This document shows, piece by piece, positions 751 to 33,149 of a stretch of 64,000 nucleotides of DNA. The stretch is from Nannochloropsis salina CCMP1776 (lineage: Eukaryota; Sar; Eustigmatophyceae; Eustigmatales; Monodopsidaceae). The translations under genes were made by a program, and so were the position numbers. Location of the stretch: contig SDOX01000101.1 of assembly GCA_004565275.1 (NCBI GenBank), forward strand, positions 75,860 through 139,859. Direction: 5' to 3'. The first letter of the stretch is position 1. Each line of letters opens with the position of its first letter. The notes under the pieces were generated by a model. It saw nothing but the letters and a program-made list of their open reading frames with translations. It was not told the origin of the DNA and ran no database searches.

Positions 751-1785
751 TCAGTCTCGAGACCCGTACTCTTTCGAAAATAAAAGCGGCTGCAGTAGTA
801 GCTTAGCCAACCAAGAGTAGTACGAGGGCTTGTGATGGACATTGTCTGCATGCAGTTCCTTAGGCAGAGACATATTCCAGACGTGAAGTAAAAGCAAGTT
901 GCTGCCCAGCTGGCTGCATTTTGTCTCAAGCGCTCGGCCAAACTCCAAGAGTCTGTTGTGGGTCTGAGGCTGATTATTCAGATTCAGGGAGGCTGAGGGA
1001 AGCAGCCAGATGATCTTACTACAGAACGGCCTAACAGTATTCACGTAATTGACTACATTATCAGCAAATTGCTCCGCGGTAATATTCAACTTCGCGTCGT
1101 GGAGGACAGCGCTCAAGATGCACAAGTCCCTTTGATAAGTTCCCTCTAGGTACTGCCCGAGGGCCTCCTGGGATGTTGTCGCGCCTGTTGCCGTGGGGAA
1201 CTCCCGATCGCGCGCGAACTCAACGGGTACGTACTCGTATGTCCACGTGCCGTTAGTAGCAACGTCGACCACGGATAATAATGCAGCATCGCATCCCGCG
1301 CAGTCTGTACAGAAGCCTTTGAGGCCAAACACAACAGGGCCCTCCAAAGTTTTGTTCGGCGCAGTCCACACGGTCGCCCGCGGTAGGCTGTAGTACTCGA
1401 GGAGTCCACATCGTTTCCCAGTCTTCACAGTCGTGGGCTGCTGACCATGCATCTCCTTGATTGGCAAGTTCTGTGAGAGACGTTTCATGGTGGAGTCCCC
1501 TGCCAACAGGATATGACGTGGCCGTGGATGGTGCCGGGTCGAGATGCCAATAAAGTCGTGCAGCTTAGACAGCGCATCGCGGCGCTCTCCGTCCTGCAGC
1601 TGCCAAGAGGTGTAGTTTCCAATCCAAATGCCGCGATTGTGGAAAACATGACACTGATCGCTAGCAAATGCTTGTCCGCCTAATAGAGAGACGGCATCGC
1701 GGGGAGCAGCTTGCCAGACTACCAAAGAAAGTACGGCAATGAGTATTGTGATGAAGCAAAGCTGCGACTGAGGCGGCTTTACCAT
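751..1785 (-). CDS. PC-esterase/TBL-like SGNH O-acyltransferase, type II membrane protein
   Basis: Proteins of the PC-esterase (trichome birefringence-like) family transfer O-acetyl groups to wall polysaccharides in the Golgi. From the Met at 1785 the product is about 344 aa. A hydrophobic segment at residues 9-25 fits a signal anchor. The motif LLAGDST carries the GDS nucleophile block at residues 96-98. A DxxH motif (D314, H317) near the C-terminus supplies the other catalytic residues. Several N-x-S/T sites suit a lumenal domain. An in-frame Met 28 codons upstream would push the anchor inward, so the inner Met is preferred. It is intronless. A broken duplicate lies at 12833-13700. The family call rests on motifs; donor and acceptor are unknown. 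Confidence 0.72.
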   Translation of the reverse strand: MVKPPQSQLCFITILIAVLSLVVWQAAPRDAVSLLGGQAFASDQCHVFHNRGIWIGNYTSWQLQDGERRDALSKLHDFIGISTRHHPRPRHILLAGDSTMKRLSQNLPIKEMHGQQPTTVKTGKRCGLLEYYSLPRATVWTAPNKTLEGPVVFGLKGFCTDCAGCDAALLSVVDVATNGTWTYEYVPVEFARDREFPTATGATTSQEALGQYLEGTYQRDLCILSAVLHDAKLNITAEQFADNVVNYVNTVRPFCSKIIWLLPSASLNLNNQPQTHNRLLEFGRALETKCSQLGSNLLLLHVWNMSLPKELHADNVHHKPSYYSWLAKLLLQPLLFSKEYGSRD

Positions 1786-2300
1786 CTTGGTGTTGACCAG
1801 GGTGTAACTCCCGAGGTTTGACACCGCCCGAGACCCTACACATATGAAATATAAAAACATGATGCACAAGCTGTAAGACGGAGGGGATTATAACATGCAG
1901 CATCACATATTTCACCATATTGGTAGTGGATCGATAAGATGGAGATTGCGCAAAAATCGTCTCAACTACGCATGCCATCCTCGAGCCAGGGGAGTCATCT
2001 CATCTAGGGGTTAACAATGAGGGACACCAATCATTGCTGAAATTCCATTCATGAATGACGCTTGAGTATTTTCAAACACTCAATGAACAGGGACTGAGAG
2101 GCATGGCCGGGGCCCATGGAGCGAAAGACCTTAGTCCAACGTGTAGTACTAGATAGTAACCGTTGCTTCAAGGCTTGATCTGAGCGTCTAAGCGCCTTTT
2201 TTCTTCGTTATTTGATGAAAAAACTTCCTTGCAGCTTGGCTTTCCTTTCATATCTGCTCTTTATCCTACTGTGTGTGCACAGATCTTCTCCCCGTTGTGA
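1786..2300. other. Upstream region of the PC-esterase gene
   Basis: No gene supported. The sequence is conserved in the duplicate at 13701-14122 and should hold the promoter of the minus-strand esterase gene. No TATA box or other element could be singled out. The CCTAGGGGT-like stretch near 2005 resembles sequence in block B, but no function can be assigned. Confidence 0.4.
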
Positions 2301-3011
2301 TCAAAATACAGTATTCCACTCGATCACTTTTTCGCCAAAAAACCTAACCATCGTCCTAACCCTAGTCTCGCTGAGCTTCTCGGCGACGCATACTACAAAT
2401 GGTAGGAACGACTCGTTCATGCAAGTGATGTGAACATTAAGATCTCTCCCGTTGCCGCGACCACTCAAGCACCTGACCTCGTACACTTTGCGTCGCGTGT
2501 GAAGAAGGCCAAGCATGGGTCGAGGTAGACGATTGAATTCGATATGCCGATGGAATTTATTGATCAAGTGAGTCAGTAGCATAGGTTCATCGATTTCCAT
2601 ATCAAATCGATGCTTATTTTTCCTAGCTAGCTCCTCAGCTGCTTCGCAAGTTTCTCGTAGGTCACCATTTTCGTCGAAATGAAGGTTGCTGAATTCAGAC
2701 ATCAACGATGCTTTTTGTGTCTCTCCTCTTAATTCGTATTTATCTGTAAGCGCTTGAAAAGCACCAGACCCATCCTTGTTTGAACGTAATTTCTCGATAA
2801 GATTCGCTGCCGCTCCCTTCAAGTACTTCTTGAGAGTGAAGTAACCCTTGACATTCTTTTCATCATAAGATTTTACCTCGTCCCCAGAAATCGGTAACTT
2901 GGTTAATCCAACAATGATATCTGCCATTTCTGGGTCCTTTGCCCCTATGAAGCTTTCAATATCTCTTTTCCAATTATCCCAGTCTTCCAATCTTCCACTG
3001 AAGATTGCCAT
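2301..3011 (-). pseudogene. Copia gag N-terminal fragment
   Basis: The frame starts with the gag N-terminus seen in all copia copies of this window (AIFSGRLEDW, ESFIGAK, SPISGDEVKSYDEKN-like with Leu for Ser). It keeps gag similarity to about residue 150 (LLTHLINK), then runs into unrelated sequence. No zinc knuckle, protease or polymerase follows. It is a 5' gag remnant on the minus strand; 3012-3236 is the matching untranslated leader with its repeated CCAATTGCAC motifs. An almost identical copy is at 14123-14926. Confidence 0.8.
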
Positions 3012-3238
3012 CCGATAATCGTCTGTCTGCTATGACTTTAAAGTTATAATCCTGGCCAGCCCAATATTCAGCCTCCAGATCCAATTAATTCCTGTCTTTA
3101 ATCTAGCAAATCCAATTACCAATTTAAACAGTCCTGAATCTCTGCAAATCCAATTGCACCAGAGAGATTCAATTTAATCCAGACCTCTATCTCTACAAAT
3201 CCAATTGCACTGGACATAGGTCGTCGATCAGTGTCTTT

Positions 3239-3514
3239 CACATCCTTTATGGATCCAACAGTCTGTATCACGATGTGCTGATCGCTATTGTATCATGTCA
3301 AGGTTTGCGTCCACCTAATCATTTGTATGTTATATTATTATACGACAACAGGACTGGCGTCGACCAGTGTCTTTGGTTGTCGATCGTATTGGTTATCTTA
3401 GTACGAGATTCTTGGGTGAATCGTTGGTCGACATTCTCAGGGAGAAAAGTGATCGTACTGAAGAATCAATTGGGTATTGGGTTACCTGTGGTATTAGTTT
3501 GTTTATTCGCATCA
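3239..3514 (+). mobile_element. Copia element A, 5' LTR fragment
   Basis: Matches the inner ~275 bp of the complete LTR at 15235-15610 and ends in the same ...TTCGCATCA. About 90 bp of its 5' end are missing. The missing part stops exactly at the right edge of duplication A, so the duplication breakpoint lies within an LTR. The GGGCCCTAAT stretch just after it is a possible primer-binding region, not proven. Confidence 0.8.
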
Positions 3515-3771
3515 GGCTATGGGCCCTAATTGACCAAACCTTTGAACTGGATAAATAGCAGATTATTCAAGACACTGATCGACGTTCTATTTTGATGCAA
3601 TTGGATTTGCAGAAATAGAGGTCTGGACGCATTTGAATCTCTCTGATGCAATTGGATTTGCAGAGATTCAGGACTGCTTTAATTGGCAATTGGATTTGCT
3701 AGATTAAAGGTAGGAAATAATTGTATCTGGAGGCCTAAGATACGGCTGGCCAGGATTATAATTGCAAAGTC

Positions 3772-6449
3772 ATGGGAGATAAAGATGACTATCGAATGGC
3801 AATCTTCAGTGGAAGATTGGAGGATTGGGACGCGTGGAAACGCGAGATTGAAAGCTTTATCGGGGCTAAGGACCAGAGATGGCAGATATCATTGTTGGAT
3901 TAACCAAGTCACCGATTTCTGGGGACGAGGTAAAATCTTATGATGAGAAGAATGCGAAGAGCTACTTCATTCTCAAGAAGTACTTGAAGGGAGTAGCCGC
4001 TAGTTTGATCGAAAAATTTCGTCAAGATAAAAATGGGGCGGGTGCATTCCGAGCACTCAGAGACAAGTACGAGTTAAGGGGAGAAACTCAAAAGGCATTA
4101 CTTATGTCTGAATTCAGTCACCTCAATTTCAATGAGAATGGTGATCCGGGGGAAACTTTCGAAGCAGCTGAGGAGCTAGCGAGGAAGATGAAGAGTCGTT
4201 TTGATATGGATATCAACGATTCCATACTTCTTACTCACCTAATCAACAAAATTCCATCGGCATATGGAATGGTGGAGGCCGAGCGGGACCTCCTCATAAT
4301 GGAAACAAATCGGGCCGGTATGAGCGTGTACCTGGCAACCCCTACAATGGCCCTGGCAAAGGCGGGCGCATTAGTTACGGACGGGAAATGGAGGCCGTGG
4401 AGGCCGTAATGGACGTGGACGTGGGAAAGGATTGCACGGTGGCAATGGTTGCCGATACTGTGGAAGTGCAGACCACTGGGGCAATGAATGCCCGAAATCC
4501 AACCCAAAAGAACATTCCTACACTTGCCTGCTAGCTAAGAAAAGGACGGATACAAGCATAAGGCAGATGAAATCGACCCCTGTTATGGTTGATAGCGGAG
4601 CTACATCCCATATGAAGAGAGATACTACAGATTTGATGATGTTGTCAGGCGACATTATGGTCACGTATATGTAGCAAATGGTGAAAAGCTAGAAGTACAT
4701 TACATCGGAGACTGGCTCATGGATGTTAAGCACAGCGATGGGACTGTTAAAGGTGTAATGTTTTAGGATGTAATTGTCGTACCCAATCTGAGTCGCGATT
4801 TATCATCCATGAGCCAGTCTCCGATGTAATGTACTTCTAGCTTTTCACCATTTGCTACATATACGTGACCATAATGTCGCCTGACAACATCATCAAATCT
4901 GTAGTATCTCTCTTCATATGGGATGTAGCTCCGCTATCAACCATAACAGGGGTCGATTTCATCTGCCTTATGCTTGTATCCGTCCTTTTGTTAGCTAGCA
5001 GGCAAGTGTAGGAATGTTCTTTTGGGTTGGATTTCGGGCATTCATTGCCCCAGTGGTCTGCGCTTCCACAGTATCGGCAACCATTGCCACCGTGCAATCC
5101 TTTCCCACGTCCACGTCCATTACGGCCTCCACGGCCTCCATTCCCCCGTCCGACATTGGCAAAAATAGAAAAGGCTGGTGGAAGAATTATTATCCGTTAA
5201 GGAAATGGTATAATTCAAAAGGGTGACACATGTTTACCGATAAGGAAAGCAGATGACATGTATATGTTAGACTACTACGGCAAACCATGTGAGGAAGCTA
5301 ATGTACTTAGCTCACCCGAATTATGGCACCAAGGGTTCGGACACATCAATTATGAGTACCTGAGACAAATGGGCGAAATTGATGATACCGGAGTGCCAAA
5401 GGGGATTAAGAAACCTGATGTTTGTGGGACTTGTGAACGAGCGAAACACACTAAAAAGAGTTTCGGGACCAAATCTAGGGAGAGGGCAAAGAAGCCTCTT
5501 GAACTAGTTCATACAGATGTACTTGGACCAGTCATTTTATCGAATTTATATGCCTTCTATTGGAGAATAGATCAGATCTGGTCATGTGACATTTGAAGAG
5601 ACATTCCCGGCGAGTGTAAGGCAATCTAACTATAGAGTTGAAACTTATCATAATGAGGAAGAAGATGATAAGGATTCTATGAAGACAGTGGGGGCTCATC
5701 AGAAGGATGACCAACGACCTGCTGAAGATGATGGTAACATCGAAGATGATTTACATCAAGATGAACCCCCCCGATGATCGTAGTATCGATCGTGTCAGGG
5801 ATGATCCGTCGCAAGTGGGGGCGACAGGATGGAAAGATACAGATAATATTGTTCGGAACATGAAAAATATGGGACGCACACGGAGCAAGACAAAGGCTCG
5901 TGAACATCATCGAATAGATGATGGGTTTGCAACCATGGGAGGTAATTTAGCCTTTGCTGCAGCCTCAGAAATTGTCAATGAGGACTATCATTACACGGAA
6001 GATGAGAGTGGAGTGCGAGCTGAAAGGAGGAAAGCCAGGGATGCAGAGTACCAGGCCCACATGAAAAACCGTACCTGGGAGTTAACCACTTTACCAAAGA
6101 GAGAACGATGCATCTCGAGTGGCTGGGTTGAAACTGACAAGCGAGATCAGAATGGTGTTATCGTAAGGAGAAAGGCAAGATTCATTGCGAAGGGGTATAG
6201 TCAAGAATATGGGTATGATTACCTCCATACTTATGCACCGGTTGCATCGATGACGACTATACGTTTGATGTTGACACTAGCATGCATATTGGATCTGGAA
6301 CTGGAAAACATGGATACGGGCATAAGGAAATCGAATGCCTCGTAAAGAAGAATGGTGGAGGTCGAGCGGGACCTCCTAACAATGGAAACAAATTGGGCCG
6401 GTATGAGCGTGTACCTGGCAACCCCTACAATGGCCCTGGCAAAGGCGGG
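3772..6449 (+). pseudogene. Copia element A gag-pol remnant, rearranged
   Basis: The Met at 3772 opens a gag closely related to element B. A one-base loss near 3870 shifts the frame. The order then breaks: a deletion joins gag helices (about 4270) to the zinc-knuckle/protease region, an inverted copy of that region follows, then a partial integrase (LWHQGFGHINYEYL, 5260-5530). Another deletion leads to the integrase-RT linker and the RT start (5580-6300). At 6300 the sequence switches back to the gag zinc knuckle (KYGHKEIEC) and ends at 6449 against block B. A TAG stop after MVMF-like protease sequence (4762-4767) is shared with element B. No functional protein is possible. Confidence 0.85.
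4378..5152. repeat. 348-bp inverted repeat (palindrome) of gag/protease sequence
   Basis: Left arm 4378-4725 and right arm 4804-5152 are near-perfect reverse complements separated by a 78-bp spacer. Both arms encode the second zinc knuckle (CRYCGSADHWGNEC) and the protease motif VDSGATSHM, on opposite strands. Both share derived changes not seen in other copies, so one arm was copied from the other. Beyond the right arm the plus-strand order resumes at the codon after the spacer. A transcript could fold into a long hairpin. Confidence 0.92.
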
Positions 6450-6597
6450 CACCTTCCCTCAGGAACGACAGTGCTTCCTCCCGGTGACCGACTTTGTGCA
6501 GTCCCGCCGCCTGGACCTTCTTGCTCGCGATCTCCTTGAGGAGCTGACCCAGACGCTCGCCCTGTCGGGGGTGGGGTACGGGCGGGGGCGACATGGA

Positions 6598-7302
6598 GGG
6601 GGAGGAGGAGGGAGGGAGGGAGGGAGGGAGGGAGGACGGGGTCGCTGGATCCTGGCCGTCCTTGGCAGGGCCATCCATTTCGGCAAGAGGAGGGAAGGAG
6701 GGAGGGAGGGAGGGAGGGAGGGAGGGAGGGAGGGAGGAAGGAAGGCGAGTCGTTGGGTGTCGTTGGAAGGAGGGGAAGGAGGACAGATGGACTGGGCGAG
6801 GACGGAGGTCTGGAGGGAGGGAGGGAGGAAGCGAGGGAGGGAAGGCATTTAGGATTAAGGTGAGGGTAACAGATCTAGGGAATCCTAGCGCAACCAGTCC
6901 TGTGCACGTCATTCTCCTCCTCCTTCCCTCATCCCCTCCCTTTCTTCCTCCCTCTCCACCTCCCTCCCTCCCAACCTGTGCCAGAGTCTCTCGTACGCTC
7001 AACTCTGCTTCCAGGGTCTTCAAGTGCCGAAACTCGCACACTGCTTCCGAAATTTTGCCCTGAGTAAGAAAGGGAGGGAGGGAGGAAGGGAGGAAAGGAG
7101 GGAGGGTGGGGAAGGATGAATGTCGAAGACCCTTACCCTAACCCTAACCCTAACCCAAAGCAGGTAGGAGGCGAGGGATAACAAGAGAGGGCGGAAAAGA
7201 GGGGGAACAGATCGAGTGAGGAAGAGCGAAAGGAAGGCAGGAGGGAGGGAGGGAGGGAAGGGGGGGAGGGAGGGAGGGAAGAGAGGGAGGGAGGGAGGAA
7301 GG
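6598..7302. repeat. (GGGA)n polypurine arrays
   Basis: Blocks of tandem GGGA/GGGAGG at about 6610-6635, 6690-6740, 7073-7107 and 7228-7302 lie in introns of the minus-strand CC2D1-like fragment, so the transcript carries (UCCC)n. They yield long artificial open frames rich in PPSLPPS, which are not genes. Confidence 0.9.
7136..7156 (-). repeat. Interstitial telomere-type repeat
   Basis: Three and a half perfect CCCTAA units inside an intron of the CC2D1-like fragment. The equivalent place in the full gene (about 41828-41852) has a degenerate version (CCCTAGCCCTAAGCCTAG). Confidence 0.85.
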
Positions 7303-8719
7303 GCCATGGAGCATCCTGGGGGTGGGCAGGTCGTCCCCGTTTCCGAAACGGGGGGAAAATGGCGCGAAAATAGGAAAGGAGCCAGGAGGGAAAGAAGGAG
7401 AGGAATGGAGGCGGCGTACCTCCTTCTTGAGGGCAACGGCTTTCGCCTTGCTTTCTCTCACTGCGTCCTGCAGTCGAGCCATTTCCAGGTCGTTGCTTGA
7501 AGGGAGGGAAGGAGGGAGGGAGGGAGGCCCCGGGGCAGGGAAGGGCTCCTCCTTTCCTCCCTCCGACCCTCCTGGGTCTTCTTCGTTCCCCCTCGGCCCT
7601 TGGCGTTCGCTAACGTCCTTCCCAACATTTCTGGGCGCTTCCTCCCCCTCCTCTGTAGGAGAGCCGCAGGCATCCTCCTTGCCCCCGCCATCGCCGCCAC
7701 CCTCCTCCTCCCCTTCCTCCTTCCACCCCAGTTACCTCAACTCGTCCTGTAAGTCTGCGGCGGGAACAGGAGGGAGAATCAACGGATCGGAACGGGGTCG
7801 GCTCAAGGCGATTGGGGCGTTCTTCCTCCCTCTCCCTTCTTCCTTCCTCTCCTGTTCGCCTCCTTGCCTCACCCGCATCGAGCACGCCATCTTCGTCGAG
7901 GCGCTCGTCCAAGTCCTCTCCCCCTTCCTCCCGACCTTCCTCCCCTCCTTTCCCCCCTGAAGCCCTGTCGCCCTTCCGGGTATTCAGGGCATCGGACGCC
8001 AAGATGTTCGTCTCCGTCCCTGTTTCCTCCCCCTCGCCCTCAGCCGGGAAGCCCGGGCTGGAGGGAGAAAGAACGCCCAAAGCCAGCTTGCGAGGGGCGG
8101 TGGCAGGCACAGAAAGGGAGGCAAAGAGCGTGTCTGCCAAGGAAGAAGGAGAGGGGGAAGAGTGGGGGACAGAGGGCAGGAGGTTTTAGATGCTACCTCC
8201 TGAAATCGCCCCTTGATGCTCACTCCCAGGTTTTCCATTTTTTCTCCCAGTCGCTCGAATTATCCTCGGGCGTGGCGCATTCCTGAACAGGTCCAACCCC
8301 CCGGCCCTCCTTACCCTCTAGTGCCTCCTCTCCCCCTAGGGCAGCAAGCTCCGCCATCAACGACGGGTCTCGACCAAAGTCTTCAAGAATCTGGACTGGA
8401 TCCATCATCATTTGCTTTGCAATCCCAGGAAATGAGGGGGAAAAATGGACGAGAGAGTCATGGACAGGGTCGTCTGAGACTAAATGCATAGCCTGGGGTC
8501 AAGCGTGCACAACACTTGGAGGGCGTGCTCAAATTCTACACTTGTACTACAATCCTTGCATCGATTTCATCACGTCACAATCAACCATGCCAAAATCTTC
8601 CATTTTTTATCCCCTTCATTGCATCTCCTCCCCGCACGTAAGTCTCTCACCTTCAACAGCTCATCCTCATCGTTCTTCTCCTTGCTGACCCCGTTGTCCT
8701 TTTTCCTTCTACCGAACAT

Positions 8720-9070
8720 GGCCTCTTTCACAGGGCTCCTTGTTCCTAGGTGCATGAATGCAAACAGATGAAAAATATACATAAGTTAAGACAGGAGAGG
8801 CAGGGAGAGGTCAGTTACATGGAGGCGGTGAGGGGGAGGGGGAGGACTGGGGGAAAGGAGGATGGATGCCTGTTTGTTCAAATGAGTAATATTTGGTTTC
8901 ACCTTCAAATGCTGACACTACGAAGGGGCTACCAAGAATTTCAAGACGTAAAATTTTTCATTCCATGTCCATGACCAACGCAAGACACGCTCAATCGAAA
9001 ATGTACAAGAGATTAAACTCTCCTCGAGGGGTCTCGATGGGATGGGGAACATGGTGGCGACGGAACGTCA
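8720..9070. other. Upstream flank of CC2D1-like copy 1
   Basis: No gene supported. The stretch is repeated at 43427-43782 and 48245-48597 and should include the original promoter of the CC2D1-like gene. Short purine-rich patches (GGCGGTGAGGGGGAGG) are present; no specific promoter element was identified. Confidence 0.4.
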
Positions 9071-9079
9071 GCTGACGCA

Positions 9080-9270
9080 AGCGATATGATGGAAAAAGAA
9101 CCGATGACGATAACGATATGATGGAAAAGGGGCCAATGACGATGACGATATGATGGAAGAGGGGTCGATGTCGATGACGATATGATGGAAAAGGGATCGA
9201 TGTAGATGACGATATGATGGAAGAGGGATCGATGACGATGATGATATGATCGAAAAGGGACCTTCGCTTG
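9080..9270. repeat. 32-bp minisatellite
   Basis: About six tandem units with the core ACGATATGATGGAA repeat every 32 bp (for example starts at 9121, 9153 and 9185). Units differ at a few positions. The matching array in the other block B copy is at about 48598-48775. The reverse strand reads through as a His/Ile/Val-rich frame, which is not considered a gene. Confidence 0.85.
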
Positions 9271-9984
9271 GCAGGTGGGCGCAGGGCCGTCACCCCTACT
9301 AATATTTGTCATTCATGATTAGTGGCAATGAATCGTAAGTCAGTCATGACTCATGCATAATACTGCGCCCGCCCTACAGGATCGAATCTGTCCAAGCTAA
9401 GGGGGTTCGAAGGGGGCCTAAATGCGAAGGAGGAACTACGGGTGCCCCTTCGCGGGCTTTGGGGCGAAGCCCCAGGCAATAATGCATTTTGAAGTGTCGA
9501 AAACGCATTTCCCGGTCGAAAATCGGAAGCCCACGTATTTTGTTAGGCCACCCATACTAGCTCAAGCGTCATTCATGGATGAAATCTCACCAATGATTGA
9601 TGACCCTCATTGGTGACCCCTAGGGGTTACGACCCAGGGTGGGCGGCGCTGGGGCTGTGAAATGCAGGGAGTTAAAAATAAGCCAGGCTCATCCTTCTCT
9701 GACAACCCCTTTGCGTGCTTGTAGGTATTTTTCGAACCTCAAGATTTTCCACTCCTAGTTAACATAGATAGATGAAAGAAAAATGCAGTAGAAATCTTCT
9801 CAAACTGCGGAAGTTGTCATGAATCTTGCATTCCCTGTGCCACATGCAACACAGTTGTTTCCGTCATAAGCGACATTCCACGCTTAAGTAGGTGAAGACG
9901 TGGCTTGGCTGACCCAGTCATTTGCATTGCCGCTTGTCATCGAATCGTCCGGGGGAGGGGGGCCTGTACTGGATATCGCCACAA
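9271..9984. other. Spacer between minisatellite and sulfotransferase gene
   Basis: No gene supported. A GC-rich hairpin-forming stretch (GGGCTTTGGGGCGAAGCCCC) is near 9456-9476. The region is conserved at 48780-49499. It should include the 3' end of the minus-strand sulfotransferase transcript. Confidence 0.4.
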
Positions 9985-11722: not shown

Positions 11723-11922
11723 TGCTTTACTCTTGCCATTTTGTTGTTGCTGCTGCTGTCAAGACACTCGCATACGTCTTCAAGAGCCATCCAGGGATAT
11801 GATGCAAAGGGACTAACAGGGTGGGCCCTCCTCCAGCTCTAAAATCTGCAGAGACACTAATAGTGAAGACACATACATAGACACATGCACCACGTCCTTC
11901 TCGTCCTCCACCTCTCCCTCCC

Positions 11923-12831: not shown

Positions 12832-12832
12832 T

Positions 12833-21639: not shown

Positions 21640-24375
21640 TTTTCCCATAAAAGTACCACACAAACGTATCATGGTGGGCAGGATTGGCGGAATATTGGGA
21701 ACTTTATTGAAGACTTCTCGGTGACCACGAATGGCTTGGGAACGCCTGCCAACGCGCTGGAGGCAGCGAGGAGAGCGGTAAGGAAGAAAGAAAGAAAGGT
21801 TTCGAGAAGAAACCGGACAATACAAGACATGAGTTACAGCGGGCTCTGCTGTGGAAAGCATTTTCCGGCAGCCCTTCGCGTTCATGCCCCTCACTAGTGC
21901 TATGCCCCTTTTTCCTGTTCGGAGGGTTTCCTTTCTCATGTGCTGCTTCCCTGTCTGCGCTGTGCAGGTCGATGAGATCAGCCACTATCCTCCCGCGGAC
22001 TTCGAGCCTGCCCTTACCCATCTGGCGTCGTTCCTGTGGCCGGAACAAGGCGACACTTACAAGCCCATGCTGCTGCTTGGAAACGGCGCGAGCGAATTGA
22101 TTGACCTGGTAATCCGACAGGCGAAGCCCGGGTAAGCGGGAAGTAGGGAGAGTAGGCAGGGTTGATGACCGTACGAAACAATCGTTGGAAGGCCTTTCGG
22201 AGCAGGAGATGGCAGGCATGGGGGCACATGGAGGAAGTGAGGAAGGCTGAAAAAGTTCTTTTCTTTTCTTCCTTTTCACATTCCATTAATGCTTATCAGA
22301 AAATGGCGACCAGGAAACACGGTCACTCAGTACAAGGAATACGAACGATCCGCCAAAGCCGGTATGACATGGTCCGCTCCCTCCCCTTTTCCTATGTTTT
22401 CTCTGCCTCATGGTTTCCTCTGAACGTCCATCACATTGACCCTAACCCTCTCCTCTTGGTCCAGCGGGCTTCACGACCACGGATGCCAGCGATGCCTCCG
22501 CCTCCCTCCTGTGCATGGTGAACCCGACCAACCCCACCGGTGACTACATGTCCGTGGAGGCCGTAAGTTCCTCTCTCCGTCTTCTCCTTGCTCGCCGCAG
22601 TTGCCTCGGTCTCGTTCCCATCCGTCTTTTCTACCCTTTTCCTCCTGCGTGCGATCTAAGGGCAACTTGTAGGATGCTGGCCTTGACTTTCGGTCCTCCT
22701 TTTCATTCCTCGATGATTTTTTCCCCTTTCGGTGTGATGATTCCGTGGGGTGTGATCCCTTCCTTGGCAGCCGGGAAGGTCTTTTTGACGGTTAGGGTTA
22801 GGGTTAGGAGTATAGTAGGGTTAGGGTTAGGAGTAATGAGCGGCTCGCTTTCCTCACGTTATCCCGCTTTTCTTTCTTTTATTTTTATTCATTAGATGAA
22901 AGCCTACATCGAGGGCACGTCCGCCCCGGGCACCACGGTTATAGTCGACGAATCTATGCAACCCTGGATCGGTCCACATTGGCGGCACGATTCCCTAATC
23001 CATCAACGGGAGTGGGTGGCGAGGATTTCGGCCGAGAAGGTGAGCTAATTGAGGGGTTTCAGGGGAAAGAGGGCAGGTGGATGTCGAGTTAGACCCTGTA
23101 TTTCATTAGTAATGCATGTTCCCTTTGACCTTCCCTCCCTCTCATCGTCCTGCTTTCCTTGCGACAGGGTGTCCACGTGTGGGTCATGACCTCCTGGACG
23201 AAGATCTGGTCGTGCACAGGCATTCGTCTGGGCAGTGTGGTGGCCCCAAACCCGGAGGCCCTTCTTGAGCTGAAAGCGAAGCAGGTGCCTTGGTCCGTCA
23301 ATTGTGTGGCGTTGGTACGTGCGAACTTAAATCAGGATGTGCGCCTCTTTCTCAGTCGAGTTATGAAGGATATTGTCCGCTTGCGGAATTTGTTCGCTGT
23401 ACACATCTTAAAGTCTTCCTTTGCCGCCCCTGATAACCTTCTTTTTCGTAGATTTGGGCGTGATGGTTGGGCAAGGGTTGCTTTTGATGTCCTGTAGATT
23501 TTGCGTGTGTTTGAACTCTCAAGGTCTTGAAGCTCCGGGCGATGTCTTCATTGTATCTCCGAGCAAAACCCCATTGCGGTGGGTATATTTTACATTCTTA
23601 GACGTCATATGTGGCTTCCTGCCTCCTCCGCCTCGTTCTTCACTCCTCTCCATCCACTAGGCTTTTCTATCCAGCGTCGTCCACGATGAAGCCTATCTTG
23701 CCTCCACATGGGAGCTCACTCCTCAATGGAATAAGGCCCTGCGAACCGAGCTAAACATTCACTTCCCATCATGGACGGTTCGTACCTCACTTCACATGCA
23801 CGCTCTAAGAGGTCCTACCTGGGGTAATACGCTCAGACTTCTGAAAAAAACCCATCTTACTCTCGTCGCTCCTATTATGACGCGTTGCGCTACCGCCCAT
23901 TGCTCCACTCCTAGGTACACGGAGAAGTTTACCTGTCCTGGGTATGGGTGGATACACACGATGTCGAGACGACTACTGAGGCCGTCAGGTTGGCGAGCGC
24001 CGCAGGCACGCCGGTTCGGAGTGCTGGTAAGAAAGATGCGCGGTAATAAAATACAGAGAGGGCCGATGACTTGGTTTCCAATGTTGTGGGAGTCGCTATA
24101 CGAGGGGCACACCTCAGTCATGAAGATGAAGGAACGAGGGTCAAGAACGAGGCTTGGGAATCTGACCTCGGGAAATTTCATCTATTTATTCGTCATCCAA
24201 GCCTGGCACTTATTTCAAATCAAGGTTTCATACATTTACTCGTCACCAATGTTCTATATTCACCTGTTACTCTATAGGTCCTGGATACAACATGCCTACT
24301 TTTTTCCGCATTGCTGTGCGTGATCCGAAAGTCACCAACATTTTGTTGGGATCCTTGCGAAGACTTGCAAAGTGA
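21640..24375 (+). CDS. PLP-dependent class I/II aminotransferase, nine exons
   Basis: Exons joined by GT-AG rules and phase: about 21640-21777, 21968-22131, 22300-22361, 22465-22562, 22896-23039, 23168-23314, 23661-23777, 23915-24026, 24278-24375 (TGA). The roughly 360-aa product reads as a fold-type I aminotransferase close to HisC/CobD-like enzymes. It has TTNGLGTP near the start, GNGASELIDL in exon 2, QYKEYERSAKAAG across exons 3-4, MVNPTNPTGDY in exon 4, VDESMQPW in exon 5, and SWTKIWSCTGIRLGS with the probable PLP lysine in exon 6. Every junction keeps frame. The start Met was not found; exon 1 is open from 21640 and may follow an upstream intron. Substrate unknown. Confidence 0.85.
22791..22831 (+). 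repeat. Two interstitial telomere-type arrays in an intron
   Basis: TTAGGG units at 22791-22808 and 22815-22831, separated by six bases, inside aminotransferase intron 4. They would be spliced out. Confidence 0.88.
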
Positions 24376-25290
24376 GACGAGCAATTTATAGCAACATCTA
24401 GGATAGTGAGGACGGAAAAATTACATCAATTTTGCCCTCAGAAAACGTCGCAAAAAAAGAATGGTCTCTAGTAATTTGGTGATGCCACGCGCACATTGAG
24501 TATCTAGAAGGTTGACCTGATGGTAGTAATAATGGATTTGGAAGAAATGGAACACATTCAATACGATTATTGCTGATGGCACGTGTAAGCTGATTGATGA
24601 GGTAAGAGACATCTGCGGGCAATGTGGAGATGTTTCATGTTGCTTTGGAGCGCACGGACTTGTCTTATGGGCCCCTCCCACCTATCTCTGAGCAGATATT
24701 TATCGAGGTCCACTCTCATCATCCAGGGATGAATTGACATGGTTAGTAAGGCTTTAGTAAATCACGGAGTGACGCGCAAGCACTCTTCACGAAAGCCAGG
24801 GACCTGGGCATGTACATCCATCCCTGGCCCTGAAGAAAAGGCATCTGCATGAACAGGTCTTCCACCTTGGTATAGTCCTTCAGCTACGGCATCGAAGCTC
24901 GGCACGAGACACGAAGCACAAGGGCTTAAGTGCTGTGCTAATCTTAAGCGTGTCCTGTAAGACGTGACATATACGCCTTCCTCTTACACGTAATCGCCTA
25001 CATACAATCTGGAACGAATGAGTACAAAGGCATTTCTTGGGGGCGGGAGCTTGGTCAATCTGGAGCGTAAGATCGGCGGATTTTAATGCAGAGCCTACAT
25101 TGTAACGATCAGGCCATCAACTTGAGTCTTATAAGTCAGAAAAATGTCTTTCATCAGAATAAGATGAAAAACTTTACCGACATGGTAATGATACGATATG
25201 ACTACAAAAATGTCTTCAAGTAGCGACGAGGCAGGACATTGTGTCGCTTTGAATTGGGTATGCTGTCTCGTCTTGCCTTGAATAGAAACG
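24376..25290. other. Intergenic, nothing recognised
   Basis: No exon, repeat or RNA gene could be supported. The left part is the 3' flank of the aminotransferase gene. Confidence 0.4.
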
Positions 25291-25313
25291 GTAACCCTAA
25301 CCCTAACCCTAAC
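25291..25313 (-). repeat. Interstitial telomere-type repeat at a duplication edge
   Basis: Three CCCTAA units precisely at the place where homology to the methyltransferase gene (AGCACTTTTGTC) begins. Confidence 0.92.
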
Positions 25314-25580
25314 AGCACTTTTGTCTTCAAGAAAGCCAAACAAGCCGGAAAGCGGGCATCTAGCTCGATTTCGCCTTTTGCCTCAGCAATTTTTCTGGCG
25401 AACCTCTGATCCTTCTCGTAGGCATTGACTTCCTGCAGGAGCTCATTTTTTTGCGCTGCGGTCAATCTTTGACAATTTTCTAATTTCAAAATTTGAGCTT
25501 GTGATGCTTGTATATCGTCCCTTTCCTGCAGCTCCATACGATTGAGCACGAAATACGTGCATTTCATAATTATAATGCAG
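25313..25580 (-). pseudogene. Methyltransferase gene, 5' fragment
   Basis: Duplicates the part of the gene at 32805-33060 that encodes the end of the membrane anchor, the coiled N-terminal stem (LQERDDIQASQAQILKL) and the sequence up to FLKTKVL. The SAM-binding domain is missing; the frame continues into telomere repeat (LGLGLG) and random sequence. It cannot be a methyltransferase. Confidence 0.85.
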
Positions 25581-26300
25581 AAGGTAAGTCGATGTACGTG
25601 TAGATTGTCCCGTTTTCTGCTTCATCGAGAATAATTGAGGTTAAACTCATCCAGAGATACAACCATAGTTGGAGCTTGTTGACGATATATACTTGTAGTT
25701 AGATCTGTGATCAGTAAAATAGCCAAGATAATGAGAGATTCGTCGACTAGATTCTTGTTTGCATGACACCTTCCGCAAGACCGCCAGAAAACAGGGAATT
25801 ATACCCTAGGATGCGTTGCACCATGAAACTCTATCTTCTCTCATCCTGGTCGAGTTCCACTTAAAGCACATATTGGAAAACCTTTGTCACGTACTAAGAC
25901 CACCTCCGTCGTTTCTGTGGCATTTGTATCGTTTAGGTTACAATACTTTCACAATGATGGTACGAGGTGTGAGTCGAACTCAAGTAACGGCCTACCCGTC
26001 GTCGTCCTTCTCCCTAAGAGACAGGAATATAGGCACATTCACATTTTCGACATGTCCAAGCCATAGCGTATTGATGGTTATAATACCGTTCCCGCTTCTT
26101 TTTAGTGGCACAACTTGTCATCTAATAATATATTTACATGATATGCTTATTTTCAAACCTATGGTAATCGAGCAAGGCAGCCGTAAAGAAAAATAAAAGT
26201 AGCGGTAGACAATAAAGCACTTTTCAAAATATATCCCCCAGATAGCGGCATGAGATCTGAATACGGTACTTCTGGGATGATGGTATTAAGTGGCCCAACA
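25581..26300. other. Intergenic, nothing recognised
   Basis: Part of this stretch (about 25960-26200) is loosely similar to 33460-33770, both downstream or upstream of methyltransferase copies, including GGCCTACCCGT and GATATGCTTAT. It is probably diverged flanking sequence of the same duplication. Confidence 0.45.
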
Positions 26301-27160: not shown

Positions 27161-28345
27161 GAACTTTATGGGCAAGTACATCGGAACCAAAATGAGGCAG
27201 ACTGCGAATGGTCTTTTTGAAATCTTGAAAGAACCTTTCTTTCGGGCGTACATCATTGCCTACATGTTATTCTTACATTTCCTTCGCTCCACAACGTGGA
27301 TCACCCGCACAGAATGCGATGCAGCACCTGCTTTCCAAGCAATTAGCCAAATTGACATCAACTCGATTATATCGAGTAATCTCGGCTCTGAGTATCACCA
27401 TTGCTATTCTCGTAATGCAAAAGCCATTTCTGAATTCCCGAAACTCGCATCTATGGACATTCAATCAACAGCAAAACGTTCCGGCAATCCCGCTTGTAAA
27501 CGAGAACTCGACGGTACTTATCACAGGCGTTGCAGGATTTATTGGTTTCTCCGTGGCAAAGTTCCTTGCTGAGCACACCAAAGCAAAGGTTGTGGGGATG
27601 GATAACTTCAATGATTACTATGATGTCGCACTTAAATACAAGAGAGCAGACTTGCTGAGTCACTGGAACACGGTCCAGGTCTTAGATGGCGATTTATGTG
27701 ACGCTCCCTTCTTGCGGAGTATTCTTGAAGATCACCATGTGACTCATGTACTTCATCTAGCTGCGCAAGCAGGGGTACGGTACTCATTGGAGCAGCCTCT
27801 AAGCTATGTCCGAAACAACATTCAATGTTTTGTAACGCTTCTAGAAGAGCTTCGTCGATTAAAAGGAAGCTCTAACGATAGTGTGCTTCCTCGCTTTGTC
27901 TACGCGTCCTCTTCGAGTGTATATGGCGGGAATGTGGAAATACCTTTCAAAGAGACAGATCAGGTGGACAATCCCTCTAGTGTTTACGGCTTCTCAAAGC
28001 GAGCGAATGAGCTCTTAGCTCTTGTGTATTTCAAGGTCTTCGGCATTCCATCTGTTGGGCTCAGATTCTTCACTGTGTATGGACCTTGGGGGAGACCTGA
28101 TATGGCACCCTACAAGTTTACTGCTAGCATTCCCAAAGGGGAGAATATTACAGTTTACAACCAAGGGGACATGGCTCGAGATTTTACTTACATTGACGAC
28201 ATAGTTTCAGGAATATATGCCTCCTTAAGCTACCTTCCGAGTTCTTCGGAAGTTATCAACTTGGGGAAAAGTAAGCCAGAGCAGGTTCTGGATTTGGTAA
28301 AAATCATTGAGAAGGAGGTTGGTCGGACGGCACGGCTAAGCTATG
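27083..28345. repeat. Segmental duplication C, copy 1
   Basis: Nearly identical to 45593-46818. It covers the 5' flank and the epimerase domain of the fusion gene. The copy's left edge is a 25-bp LTR remnant; its right edge is the assembly gap. Confidence 0.9.
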
Positions 28346-29391
28346 AGGATTCTGCAGTTGATTTACACGCGACCTATGCTTCAACGAGCAAGGCGAAAGA
28401 GCTCCTCTCTTATGCTCCTCAAGTAAGCATGGATGAAGGGATCAAAAGATTTGTCGAATGGTACTTCCTGTATACAGGTGAACGTGCATTGTGTGCTAGC
28501 GAGTGCTCGGAGATGAGCCGTTGCATACCATCGCCATTCGATGATATGTTGACTCAATCCGTGGAAGCGACACACGGTTGCCAAACTGTAATTTACACTG
28601 CATTTTTCGGACCGACTAGATCGGGTCTACAGGACCCTCCTGCAGAGCTCGCCTGCAATGACGAGCGATGCTGCGCCGTTGCCTTCACCAATATTGAGAT
28701 CCCGATGTCAGCGTCCCGCTATAAATGGAAGATAATTATGTGGAGCGGAGAAAATTTCCATTTTTGGGATAATCGGCGACTATCACGAGTCATGAAGCTA
28801 AGCCCCGCTCGCTTTTTTTCATCATCTGTAGAGCACGCCATATATATTGATACGAAGCTGACACTGAAAGCAGATTATAATTATCTTGTTGGGATGCTGA
28901 GTGACAACGAAAATCGTACTGCAAGCCTTGTAGCAGTACGGCACCCAGCCAGAAACGGCCCTTTTGAGGAAAAAGAAGCCATTACAGGTCATAAGAAAAC
29001 TCGATCGAGCGTCACTTACACGCTAAGAACATTAGATCATCAGGTGAATGGATATCTTGATCTTCAAAACACTCAAAATATCTCAATGGTAAACATGATC
29101 GAAGGAGCACTCTTGGTTCATAAATTAAAAAACAAATCAGGTCGCAAATTTCGCTGTGCGTGGTCGAAAGAATATTATGGAGGCTGTGATAGAGATCAGA
29201 TCTCATTCACGGCGGTTCTTGCGAAAGAAGCCCATGATGCTGGGTCAAATCTTGATCCCGATCAGGAGTGGTGCAAAGTGAGTAGCGACCCAGACTCGTA
29301 CGTACGAATTTTACCTAGAATATTGCACTGGTCGAAAGGGTCCTTGGCTGTCGCGAGTGAGAAGGACGCATATGATAGGAAGCTTGCGTAA
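27319..29391 (+). CDS. UDP-glucuronate 4-epimerase-like / TOD1-MUCI70-like glycosyltransferase fusion
   Basis: One 690-aa frame with two enzyme-like modules. A signal anchor lies at residues 19-33. Residues 65-385 form an extended SDR epimerase: TGVAGFIG at 69-76, DNFNDYYDVAL at 95-105, and Y223/K227 in YGFSK. TVYGPWGRPDMA and MARDFTYIDD are typical of UDP-glucuronate 4-epimerases. After a Cys-rich linker (392-402), residues 421-675 resemble the TOD1/MUCI70 (DUF616) domain, with ARFFSSSVEHAIYIDTK at about 497-513. One protein might make UDP-galacturonate and use it or a related sugar in the Golgi; that is inference. The Met at 27319 is preferred over the upstream open frame because it places the anchor near the N-terminus. 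No introns seen. Confidence 0.8.
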   Translation: MQHLLSKQLAKLTSTRLYRVISALSITIAILVMQKPFLNSRNSHLWTFNQQQNVPAIPLVNENSTVLITGVAGFIGFSVAKFLAEHTKAKVVGMDNFNDYYDVALKYKRADLLSHWNTVQVLDGDLCDAPFLRSILEDHHVTHVLHLAAQAGVRYSLEQPLSYVRNNIQCFVTLLEELRRLKGSSNDSVLPRFVYASSSSVYGGNVEIPFKETDQVDNPSSVYGFSKRANELLALVYFKVFGIPSVGLRFFTVYGPWGRPDMAPYKFTASIPKGENITVYNQGDMARDFTYIDDIVSGIYASLSYLPSSSEVINLGKSKPEQVLDLVKIIEKEVGRTARLSYEDSAVDLHATYASTSKAKELLSYAPQVSMDEGIKRFVEWYFLYTGERALCASECSEMSRCIPSPFDDMLTQSVEATHGCQTVIYTAFFGPTRSGLQDPPAELACNDERCCAVAFTNIEIPMSASRYKWKIIMWSGENFHFWDNRRLSRVMKLSPARFFSSSVEHAIYIDTKLTLKADYNYLVGMLSDNENRTASLVAVRHPARNGPFEEKEAITGHKKTRSSVTYTLRTLDHQVNGYLDLQNTQNISMVNMIEGALLVHKLKNKSGRKFRCAWSKEYYGGCDRDQISFTAVLAKEAHDAGSNLDPDQEWCKVSSDPDSYVRILPRILHWSKGSLAVASEKDAYDRKLA

Positions 29392-31150: not shown

Positions 31151-32180
31151 GATTCCTTCTTCCCATGGTCCATCCGCCTCGCTTGCTTTCCTTTCCCCTT
31201 GTTCAGCGAACTACGGCGTCTAATTCTCTCTCTCTCGAAGGCAATCGAGCGGACGCTTGTTATTCTCCATCTTTCTCCCCTTACTTCCTCCCTCAGTCGT
31301 TCTGCTCCTGGCATGTGCATGTAAATAGCAAACATGAATCGGAAATCAAGAATTTAGGGAGACCTTCCTATCAGAGAGCAGAAAATAAAGGCGCTCAGGC
31401 GCTTACAGCCGTACCTCAGAGTGACTCACACCCATAAAGAGAAGAATCTTTCGAAGAAAAACATTCTTGACTTCGCGAAGAAGCCATACTTAAAGTGGAC
31501 GAATTTTTTTTTCTGACTAGAGAGAATATTTTTCCTTTTCTTGGAGAACACCAAACATTTCTTCGTCAACTGAAAGGTTGTCTTCATGAAGAGAAGATGT
31601 TTTCTTCTTTTAAGGAAAGCTCATGATTCTTCGTCTCCTAGACAGCCACCCAAGAAAAGTTTTTCTTGGGAAGAAAAGATTTTTTTTTCTTTCTCTAAAG
31701 GAAAAACAGCTATCGCTTTCAAGAAAACGTTTGTTTATTCGGAAGGAAGACAAACTGAAAAAGTTGCCACCCTCTGATAACAATATGAACTAACTGTTGT
31801 GCGGCAACAAAATAGCTCATGTTCACGAGAGGACGGGACGGGTGGGCAATGAGCGCCCTGGGAGCGAAGTCGGTGGATGTGCATGGGGTCACTATGAGAA
31901 ACATTTAAATATTGGACGGTGTGGAACGTGGGTATGCATATAGGGTTTACAAGAAGGGCATCAGCTATTCTCTTGCTGCTAAACAATTGGTTTTTATTGT
32001 TGCTAGAAAGTTGAATTCCTTTTCTGGGGACACCTTTTCTTTGCCTTCCTTGCAAATGAGCAGGGGTTCTTTTGAGAAATAATTGTCTTTTTTCCAGGGA
32101 AGCTTTTTTACCTTAGCAAGGTGTCAGCCCCTACCTTTAGTAAGATAACAGCAAGTGTTGTATTATTTGAATTTGCTCAA
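31151..32180. other. Intergenic, nothing recognised
   Basis: Low-complexity A/T-rich stretches such as GAAGAAAAGATTTTTTTTTC at 31500-31720. No gene supported. The motif TAAATAGCAAACAT near 31323 also occurs near 29940, so small dispersed repeats are present. Confidence 0.4.
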
Positions 32181-33149
32181 TTATTTAATAACCCCTTTGA
32201 TGCTGCGTTCGACAAACATGACATTCGGATTTTTTACTCGACGGAACAAAAAATGCGTGTATTTGGGTGCTCCATTCATGATACACTTTGCGTCCTTGTT
32301 CCTGGTACTCTTCCCGTCGATTTCACCTTTTGAGCCGCAGTCTGTATCAGTATCAAAGCTAAAATGCTCTAGCTGAAAGCCATGATCCGCCATACCGCCA
32401 ACAAGAACATGGTGAGGAACTACATTCTCGAAAAACTGATCTGCATCCAGCAACTGTGTTTCTGGAGAAGGAACATGGAAGTAGACGGCAGTTTCTGGAT
32501 GCGAGTATCGCTCAATTGTGCTGAAGAGGCAATCATATCTCTCGGGTTGAACGTGCTCGACGACATCAAGGAGCGTAATGACATCAAATTTGAAGTCGAT
32601 CTCATCAAATTCCGTGATGTCTGAATTATAGAACTCCATCCTGTCTCCAAAAATTTCCTTTGCAGCTTTCACCCATCCTCCGACGAGCTCAACACCGACC
32701 ATTCGTCCCCTCCCACCATCCGTATCAAGCACTTCACCAATAACCCGCAACAAAGCACCTGCAGCAGATCCAAGATCTAACACTGACTGTCCTGATGTCA
32801 GCACTTTTGTCTTCAAGAAAGCCAAACAAGCCGGAAAGCGGGCATCTAGCTCGATTTCGCCTTTTGCCTCAGCAATTTTTCTGGCGAATCTCTGATCCTT
32901 CTCGTAGGCATTGACTTCCTGGAGGAGCTCATTTTTTTGCGCTGCGGTCAATCTTTGACAATTTTCTAATTTCAAAATTTGAGCTTGTGATGCTTGTATA
33001 TCGTCCCTTTCCTGCAGCTCCACACGATTGAGCACGAAATACGTGCATATCATAATTATAATGCAGAAGGTAAGTCGATGTACGTGTAGATTGTCCCGGT
33101 GCCGGCATCGAGCATTGTTTAGTTTTAGCCCACCGGCACACACGGCCAT
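32181..33149 (-). CDS. Membrane-anchored class I SAM-dependent methyltransferase
   Basis: The 322-aa product has a hydrophobic anchor at about residues 27-41, a helical stem (45-115) and a Rossmann-type methyltransferase domain. Motif I is VLDLGSAAGALL (123-134); the acidic end of strand 2 is VGVELV (151-156); the strand 4 motif is FDVITLLDVVEHV (188-200). It would transfer methyl from SAM, perhaps to a sugar or lipid on the endomembrane system; the substrate is unknown. It is intronless. The first Met (33149) is used, although the Met directly before the anchor could be the real start. A fragment of it lies at 25313-25580. Confidence 0.75.
   Translation of the reverse strand: MAVCAGGLKLNNARCRHRDNLHVHRLTFCIIIMICTYFVLNRVELQERDDIQASQAQILKLENCQRLTAAQKNELLQEVNAYEKDQRFARKIAEAKGEIELDARFPACLAFLKTKVLTSGQSVLDLGSAAGALLRVIGEVLDTDGGRGRMVGVELVGGWVKAAKEIFGDRMEFYNSDITEFDEIDFKFDVITLLDVVEHVQPERYDCLFSTIERYSHPETAVYFHVPSPETQLLDADQFFENVVPHHVLVGGMADHGFQLEHFSFDTDTDCGSKGEIDGKSTRNKDAKCIMNGAPKYTHFLFRRVKNPNVMFVERSIKGVIK

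Follow-up and report, generated by a model that had tools for sequence, protein, structure and literature searches.

Why do genes for several membrane-anchored, glycan-modifying enzymes lie together, each with a copy or a fragment of itself, in the 64,000-nucleotide stretch of Nannochloropsis salina CCMP1776 analysed here (the window)? The initial annotation had recognized four gene types: a PC-esterase-like (PCE-like) protein, a sulfotransferase-like (ST-like) protein, an epimerase-glycosyltransferase (GT) fusion and a methyltransferase. All four are present as open frames, each with an N-terminal hydrophobic segment scoring above 1.6 on the Kyte-Doolittle scale, and a second copy or fragment was found for each, as had also been proposed:

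751..1785, minus strand: PC-esterase/SGNH-like anchored protein, 344 aa, open frame (ORF, motifs read by eye)
9985..10848, minus strand: sulfotransferase-like anchored protein ST1 (ORF, two PAPS-type motifs read by eye)
12832..13700, minus strand: second PCE-like copy, broken by a frame shift part-way and thus in two frames (duplicate block)
25316..25666, minus strand: methyltransferase fragment with an in-frame stop (duplicate match)
27319..29391, plus strand: fusion of a membrane anchor, a UDP-GlcA 4-epimerase-like domain and a TOD1/MUCI70 GT-like domain (ORF, Pfam, PDB, active-site mapping)
32181..33149, minus strand: anchored class I methyltransferase, 322 aa (Methyltransf_31)
45795..46818, plus strand: second epimerase-GT copy, N-terminal half (98.4% identity to 27122-28342)
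49500..50360, minus strand: second sulfotransferase-like copy ST2, open frame, 92% amino acid identity to ST1 (alignment)

Anchored enzymes of glycan type do cluster here, but the span of about 50 kb attributed to the cluster is too small: the window is the middle part of a 164.7-kb contig (C3), along which related glycan-type genes extend from C3:6632 to C3:160561. The window is best explained as the middle of some 155 kb of surface-glycan genes in this oil-producing eustigmatophyte alga, a region that is probably a reservoir of variable enzymes for building or decorating an anionic glycan of the cell surface or wall.

How far can the individual enzymes be assigned? The fusion at 27319..29391 matches Pfam Epimerase (163.1 bits) and TOD1_MUCI70 (PF04765). 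The latter family is found in three C3 proteins (44.9 bits in the window fusion, 35.1 and 64.4 bits in the others), all above the gathering cut-off of 21.4; the window protein covers about half of the profile (128-290 of 314), and more of it is aligned in the fusion copy at C3:22961 (58-287). The best solved relatives of the epimerase domain in a PDB sequence search are 5u4q and 6zl6, the second of which we take to be the UDP-GlcA 4-epimerase of Bacillus cereus. The domain contains the SDR motif GxxGxxG with the Tyr/Lys pair, and active-site mapping shows that equivalents of Arg185, Tyr149, Lys153 and Thr178 of 6zl6 are retained. The last three presumably have the functional roles assigned to them in UDP-GlcA 4-epimerase, while Arg185, according to excerpts of PMC12338863, holds the carboxylate of UDP-GalA. 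Because these residues are retained, the fusion could plausibly make UDP-GalA for its own MUCI70-like domain. Fusion copies are under purifying selection, with dN/dS values of 0.36 (Fisher p 4e-11) and 0.22 (p 0.006). As the second window copy (45795-46818) ends at a 100-N gap (46819-46918), its truncation reflects a limit of the assembly, perhaps with no biological break. The methyltransferase at 32181-33149 reaches 34.6 bits against Methyltransf_31 (gathering cut-off 27). Of the functions initially read from motifs, those of the fusion and the methyltransferase thus pass Pfam and stand as domain-based assignments, whereas the other two are motif-based, with no family and poor structure models.

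The PCE-like protein at 751-1785 has a hydrophobic segment scoring 2.43 (Kyte-Doolittle) and, read by eye, GDS and DxxH, which we assume to be PC-Esterase motifs. It matched no Pfam family, missing the gathering score of PC-Esterase (PF13839), and neither NCBIfam nor a PDB sequence search gave a family; alignment with the PC-esterase of contig C98 was not convincing. Its structure model is of low confidence (pLDDT 40.6) and had no PDB fold match at E <= 0.001; several SGNH esterases are among the best 50 fold matches, none of them significant. The second PCE-like copy belongs to a duplication in which block 919-3238 is 99.3% identical to 12832-15153; the dN/dS of the two copies was set aside because the second one changes frame. 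As for ST1, two putative PAPS-type motifs, presumably the PAPS-binding motifs of sulfotransferases, can be read in it by eye. The protein gave no Pfam sulfotransferase match, no family in a PDB sequence search and, in NCBIfam, one irrelevant weak match and no relevant family. Compared with the Sulfotransfer_2 protein at C3:67425, it shows only short local motif matches (E 0.005 at the first PAPS motif, E 27 at the second), with a profile match of 1.4% probability that covers the first motif only; its structure model (pLDDT 35) is too poor for use. The pair ST1/ST2 shows no signal of constraint (dN/dS 1.16, p 1.0), and the same p value leaves positive selection unsupported. Both labels, PC-esterase and sulfotransferase, are therefore to be read as putative and motif-based.

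Beyond the window, C3 additionally encodes a GT61 protein, a xyloglucan-fucosyltransferase-like protein, the Sulfotransfer_2 protein, a second methyltransferase and two further epimerase-GT fusions. In total, it holds about 12 kinds of anchored protein, most of which resemble makers or decorators of a surface sugar coat; 11 of the 12 have a hydrophobic N-terminal segment on the Kyte-Doolittle scale, and for the twelfth, visual inspection of an overlapping frame showed one. Several of these proteins have no assignable family, and PDB sequence searches with two of them gave no useful match. The C3 genes with an assignable domain are almost wholly of glycan or methyltransferase type.

Is this content peculiar to C3, which makes up 0.6% of the genome? 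Profile searches of the genome placed on this contig all three TOD1_MUCI70 matches, the only Sulfotransfer_2 match (1/1), the only XG_FTase match (1/1) and one of four GT61 matches. The naive probability of such a placement is about 6e-9, a value that is merely indicative because the families were chosen after C3 had been seen. Searches with the PCE-like and ST-like window proteins found copies on C3 only. Conversely, none of the PC-Esterase (0/2), Sulfotransfer_3 (0/9) or Sulfotransfer_1 (0/6) matches is on C3; since the 9 and 6 matches of the two sulfotransferase families all lie on other contigs, sulfation is not limited to C3, and the idea that all of it resides there is ruled out.

The sequence context of these genes is given by the following elements of the window (unstranded unless indicated):

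2553..6464: copia-like retroelement remains (2553-3023, 3727-6464)
6449..12832: segmental duplicate A, a G-rich block and ST1 (95-97% identity to 41147-43783 and 46919-52350)
7136..25312: four short telomere-like tracts (7136-7153, 20555-20581, 22791-22831, 25295-25312)
14468..20002: copia-like retroelement remains (14468-14938, 15818-20002)
41147..52350: segmental duplicate A', two G-rich blocks, a copia piece, the epimerase half and ST2
43723..45375, minus strand: copia-like fragment
52725..63254: copia-like retroelement remains, four intervals

The GC content of C3 is 46.6%, that is, 5-8 points below the genome, for which 54.88% was published (PMC6953503) and 52.0% obtained from a sample of 50 kb from 15 loci. 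Of the 47 copia reverse-transcriptase pieces found in the genome, 22 are on C3, whose segmental duplications reach 95-99% identity. Telomere-like tracts are all internal, with no telomere found at the readable right end of the contig.

Taken as a mechanism, C3 would encode membrane-anchored, Golgi-type enzymes that cooperate in building an anionic glycan of the cell surface or wall and in decorating it. The epimerase domain of the fusion, given its identity and active-site residues, would convert UDP-GlcA to UDP-GalA, which the MUCI70-like domain may then take over as donor. The GT61-like and fucosyltransferase-like proteins, identified by their domains, would attach side chains through putative linkages, and the sulfotransferases, methyltransferases and PC-esterase/SGNH-like protein would put on sulfate, methyl and acyl groups; among these modifiers, two methyltransferases and one Sulfotransfer_2 protein are backed by Pfam, and the PCE-like and window ST proteins by motif only. 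Because the region is AT-rich, copia-filled and segmentally duplicated, the enzyme set would be copied, broken and remixed within it, so that it may act as a reservoir of variable enzymes rather than as a static, operon-like pathway.

The alternative with the best chance, though an unlikely one, is that of a repeat-rich, possibly subtelomere-like dumping ground, into which dispersed glycan genes were duplicated and where most of them decay with no joint role. The copia load, the segmental duplications and the telomere-like tracts would fit, as would the broken members (the second PCE-like copy, the methyltransferase fragment and a split fucosyltransferase-like gene) and the paralogues of C3 genes that occupy GC-richer loci on C55, a 1.3-Mb contig that also has GT61 and epimerase relatives. 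However, purifying selection on the fusion copies, the long open frames kept by nine of the protein kinds and the nearly uniform type of the assignable genes all speak against it. A fixed cluster of co-regulated genes that serve a single wall polymer, acidic as well as sulfated, methylated and acylated, is quite unlikely. The activities are complementary (epimerase-GT fusion, fucosyl- and GT61-like transferases, sulfo- and methyltransferases), and a single acidic wall polysaccharide, the shared product first proposed, is compatible with the gene set; yet duplicates and broken copies occur, the genes are on mixed strands with retroelements between them, and sulfotransferase and PC-esterase families are also present elsewhere in the genome. 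The surroundings of these genes, with their retroelements, GC content and duplications, were no part of the initial proposal; they point to a rapidly changing reservoir for surface glycans no less than to a fixed pathway for the wall. That unrelated repeats were brought together by faulty assembly or by contamination is highly improbable: the assembly is a 454/Illumina draft with gaps (PMC6953503), one of them within the window, and near-identical duplicates are present, but the first copies of all four families lie within 46.8 kb free of gaps, C3 genes have their paralogues on C55, and copia relatives are found on 9 other contigs. Least probable of all is a foreign insert from a large DNA virus or a bacterium, for although low GC, long uninterrupted frames and epimerase relatives in viral contigs (36-43%) might suggest it, of 97 viral loci the 80 retained match the epimerase part only, where the search patterns lay, the paralogues reside on the 1.3-Mb C55, and narrow searches (epimerase, ST, PCE), which reach close relatives only, leave a viral origin unsupported, with no viral relative of ST or PCE and no prokaryotic relative of the fusion GT domain.

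The proposed reservoir of variable surface-glycan enzymes has possible counterparts elsewhere. According to excerpts of PMC5082852 and PMC3491373, the small outlier chromosomes (SOCs) of Mamiellales, such as chromosome 19 of Ostreococcus tauri and of Bathycoccus, measure 102-290 kb, have low GC and transposons, and are enriched in glycosyltransferases, methyltransferases and NAD epimerases, with large duplicated blocks in that of O. tauri. C3 resembles them in kind, in its 165-kb size class, markedly lower GC, transposons, duplicated blocks and dominance of glycan-modifying and methyltransferase genes as far as those excerpts describe SOCs, but SOC membership is not claimed: its host is a stramenopile and not a green alga, it is known as a contig and not as a whole chromosome, and the likeness in gene content is one of gene kinds. 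The SOCs of these green algae are also called 'virus-immunity' chromosomes, a further mark of which is a change in expression or size linked to virus resistance; C3 is likened to them by sequence features. Similar kinds of sugar-modifying and methyl enzymes are found in the variable glycan islands of the bacterium Prochlorococcus, tied to phage resistance (as mentioned in excerpts of PMC3491373). Tentatively, this stramenopile may have evolved an independent SOC counterpart, an AT-rich, retrotransposon-driven reservoir of anchored glycan enzymes. In it, UDP-GalA-making fusions, with their epimerase core homogenised and their GT halves diversifying, would vary the surface glycan under viral or other attack. 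Should the 'glycan-enzyme outlier region' prove real, distant algae would have converged on it as a solution, and its link to virus resistance would be testable in a second, transformable and industrially important lineage. Among the matches listed from the open-licence literature, titles and openings of abstracts mention no outlier-chromosome-like region or wall-glycan cluster in Nannochloropsis; the sole match for an outlier chromosome there, PMC8002553, is unrelated judging by its excerpts, PMC11812345 concerns a different strain, and the excerpts of PMC11857774 do not give the wall composition.

The fusion itself can be compared with two known situations. The 327-residue PDB chain of 6zl6 is related in sequence and has the same catalytic and carboxylate-binding residues but, unlike the C3 protein, no GT domain. 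In plants, according to the excerpted parts of PMC9162176, GAE supplies Golgi UDP-GalA to GTs including MUCI70, and the two work within the Golgi lumen towards rhamnogalacturonan, MUCI70 as a minor contributor; the C3 fusion unites these two domains in one anchored polypeptide, an arrangement not described in the sampled open-licence literature on the two. If real, it would physically link a little-understood plant GT family to a UDP-GalA donor.

Finally, 120 C3 ORFs of at least 100 aa remained once copia sequences, genes already known and ORFs failing a composition filter had been set aside; 108 were scanned with Pfam (12 were omitted), giving ten families with one member each at E <= 0.01, and 73 of the 108 were also scanned individually (3 + 10 + 60). 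One ORF matched both THDPS_M (30.2 bits, cut-off 25) and DUF7140; the THDPS_M match is likely an artefact of a repeat array, since no single stretch reaches the cut-off. Individual scans also gave a Methyltransf_22 match barely over its cut-off and a BRWD_AD match under it, each on one ORF, while the matches to SAP, DUF5338, tRNA-synt_1_2, PMP1_2, TrmB and DUF5557 are among ORFs scanned in bulk only.

The initial annotation had described four families of glycan-modifying enzymes clustered in the window. The open reading frames (ORFs) and domains bear this out, but the observation is understated: the cluster extends beyond the window along contig C3 (164,719 bp), of which the window covers bases 75,860-139,859, and comprises 12 kinds of protein in all. 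In the genome analyzed (26.5 Mb, 103 contigs; the published N. salina CCMP1776 assembly, from 454 and Illumina reads, has 27.6 Mb, 194 scaffolds and 54.88% GC; PMC6953503), its members are:

Window 751-1785, minus strand: PC-esterase/SGNH-like protein (PCE-like); GDS and DxxH motifs by eye
Window 9985-10848, minus strand: sulfotransferase-like protein (ST-like); two PAPS-type motifs by eye
Window 27319-29391, plus strand: epimerase-GT fusion; Pfam Epimerase 163.1 bits, TOD1_MUCI70 44.9 bits (cut-off 21.4)
Window 32181-33149, minus strand: methyltransferase; Methyltransf_31 34.6 bits (cut-off 27), plus other families
C3:6632-8086: putatively anchored protein, no family
C3:20462-21673: putatively anchored protein, no credible family
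C3:22772-24835: fusion copy, about 60% identical; TOD1_MUCI70 64.4 bits
C3:40545-41473: Methyltransf_22 protein in two pieces, the second at 22.5 bits (cut-off 22.4)
C3:45158-46219: XG_FTase-like, 28.1 bits (cut-off 23.4); displaced second half at 42702-43391
C3:60792-62345: GT61, 53 bits (cut-off 27)
C3:67425-68255: Sulfotransfer_2, 25.1 bits (cut-off 22)
C3:149125-149886: sulfotransferase-like; Sulfotransfer_3 E 0.0012, below cut-off
C3:150970-153078: fusion copy, outside the window
C3:159617-160561: protein with an RGGD-like motif, no family

Six of the 12 kinds exceed Pfam cut-offs (the fusion, the window methyltransferase and the Methyltransf_22, XG_FTase, GT61 and Sulfotransfer_2 proteins), three rest on a motif or a weak score (ST-like, PCE-like and C3:149125), and three match no assignable family in profile searches. 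A hydrophobic N-terminal segment, a putative anchor, is found by simple hydropathy in 11 kinds and was recognized by eye, in an overlapping frame, in the twelfth. Among the family labels first given, those of the fusion and the methyltransferase are thus upheld by Pfam, whereas PCE-like matches no family in Pfam, PDB sequence or NCBIfam searches and ST-like none in Pfam. We take the GDS and DxxH motifs to be of the PC-esterase/SGNH type, and the paired ST-like motifs are presumably of the PAPS-binding type. Several SGNH esterases are among the top 50 fold matches of a low-confidence PCE-like model (pLDDT 40.6), none at E ≤ 0.001; the ST-like model is unusable (pLDDT 35.4). Local alignment with the C3:67425 Sulfotransfer_2 protein gives E 0.005 for the first ST-like motif and only E 27 for the second, and profile comparison of the two proteins a probability of 1.4%.

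The top relatives of the fusion in a PDB sequence search are 5u4q and 6zl6. The latter, listed only as an epimerase-domain protein, we take to be the Bacillus cereus UDP-GlcA 4-epimerase, with Tyr149, Lys153 and Thr178 presumably functional residues. These three and Arg185 are conserved in the fusion, Thr126 is replaced by Ser, and the counterparts of the active-site residues are invariant across four aligned fusion copies. Arg185 is described as alone holding the UDP-GalA carboxylate (PMC12338863). In plants, the UDP-GalA that GAE produces in the lumen of the Golgi serves galacturonosyltransferases, among which MUCI70 is counted, its demonstrated role being minor (PMC9162176); here, counterparts of both are joined in one putatively anchored protein. 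UDP-GlcA would enter the Golgi and be turned into UDP-GalA by the epimerase domain of the fusion, the attached MUCI70-like domain may transfer that UDP-GalA, and fucosyl-, GT61-, sulfo-, methyl- and acyl-type enzymes could then decorate the product. A single-pathway reading of the cluster is possible, yet not favored over a changing surface-glycan reservoir.

All four window families had been reported as duplicated or fragmented, and copies were found for each. Duplicated segments pair window 919-3238 with 12832-15153 (99.3% identity), 6449-9075 with 41147-43783 (96.8%), 7396-12832 with 46919-52350 (95-97%), 27122-28342 with 45598-46818 (98.4%) and 25313-25612 with 32799-33098 (98.7%). The second PCE-like copy is broken across two frames, the methyltransferase fragment is interrupted by a stop, and the frame stays open in the second ST-like copy (92% identical). 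The supposed epimerase fragment stops at a 100-N assembly gap (window 46819-46918) and may therefore be a complete gene. A 32-bp tandem repeat array lies near each ST-like copy (window 9082-9260 and 48599-48773). Outside the window, the fucosyltransferase-like gene is split (C3:42702-46219), its C-terminal piece coming first and the pieces overlapping by 41 residues (95%).

The fusion copies at C3:103178 (in the window) and C3:151021 differ by 186 nucleotides over 685 codons, only 24 of them in codons 61-480, an unevenness matched by 0 of 5000 permutations, with the length of the codon window picked after the data were seen. Between them, the epimerase core looks homogenized and the anchor and GT parts diverged, which suggests gene conversion or module exchange. 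Their dN/dS is 0.36 overall (p 4e-11); that of the gap-ending copy versus C3:103178 is 0.22 (p 0.006). For the ST-like pair, dN/dS is 1.16, which is not significant (p 1.0), and relaxed constraint and diversification cannot be told apart.

In a six-frame whole-genome search, C3, which is 0.62% of the genome, holds 3/3 TOD1_MUCI70, 1/1 Sulfotransfer_2, 1/1 XG_FTase and 1/4 GT61 matches, and none of the PC-Esterase (0/2), Sulfotransfer_3 (0/9) or Sulfotransfer_1 (0/6) matches; PCE-like and ST-like queries returned C3 copies only. The naive chance of such placement, about 6e-9, is only indicative, since the families were chosen after C3 had been seen and only the best candidates were scored, exon by exon. 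In the remainder of C3, 120 ORFs of at least 100 aa passed the filters and 108 were scanned (73 singly), yielding ten Pfam families at E ≤ 0.01 with one member each. Four of the families were traced by single scans: Methyltransf_22, BRWD_AD, which stays under its cut-off, and the pair THDPS_M and DUF7140, which fall in the same ORF; the other six are weak. THDPS_M, at C3:68942-69334, exceeds its cut-off only through summed short stretches and, as no single stretch passes alone, was taken as a repeat-array artefact. No non-glycan gene with a convincing domain was seen among the scanned ORFs; one is possible on C3, above all of the short-exon type.

Some cluster members have paralogues on other contigs: C55 carries, at about 698 kb, a GT61 protein (44% identical to that of C3) adjoining a protein related (31%) to the one at C3:6632, as well as a stand-alone epimerase (45% identical) with no TOD1_MUCI70 match in a Pfam scan. 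The adjacency to GT61 hints that the C3:6632 family is glycan-related. At about 332 kb of C55, a 31-aa methyltransferase relict (71%) lies beside an NAD-epimerase gene and an open frame without family. A search of viral contigs gave 97 relatives; the 80 that were retained align solely with residues 9-402 of the query, its epimerase part, in which the search patterns were themselves sited. In searches reaching close relatives only, ST-like and PCE-like had no viral-contig relative and the GT domain none among 84,980 prokaryote species.

The GC content of C3 is 46.6% (47.9% without copia coding), against 52.0% in 50,421 bases sampled at 15 non-C3 loci and a published 54.88% (PMC6953503); 12 of the 13 cluster ORFs measured are at 42-47%, and PCE-like is at 53%. 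Copia-like coding occupies 44.6 kb of C3, and 22 of the 47 copia reverse-transcriptase pieces found genome-wide lie there, counts that are minima and refer to pieces rather than elements, with C3's own copy as query; C80, C49, C78, C94, C75, C76, C97, C1 and C46 also carry this reverse transcriptase. Four internal TTAGGG-type tracts are present (window 7136-7153, 20555-20581, 22791-22831 and 25295-25312), one directly after a copia-related repeat, and no further one was found in the readable remainder of C3 or in partly overlapping non-C3 loci that total 64,125 bases. Small outlier chromosomes of Mamiellales are described as 102-290 kb long and low in GC, with an abundance of GTs, methyltransferases and epimerases. 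They also have transposon-related genes and, in O. tauri, duplicated blocks; in that species, virus resistance is accompanied by changes in how they are regulated and in their size (PMC5082852, PMC3491373). C3 resembles them in anatomy, being alike in kind of content and in structure, but it belongs to another lineage, is known as a contig only and is not classed as one. Near the ends of contigs C65 and C72, open frames of 1087 and 1088 aa (GC 42-43%), weakly epimerase-like, mark possible additional duplicated low-GC regions.
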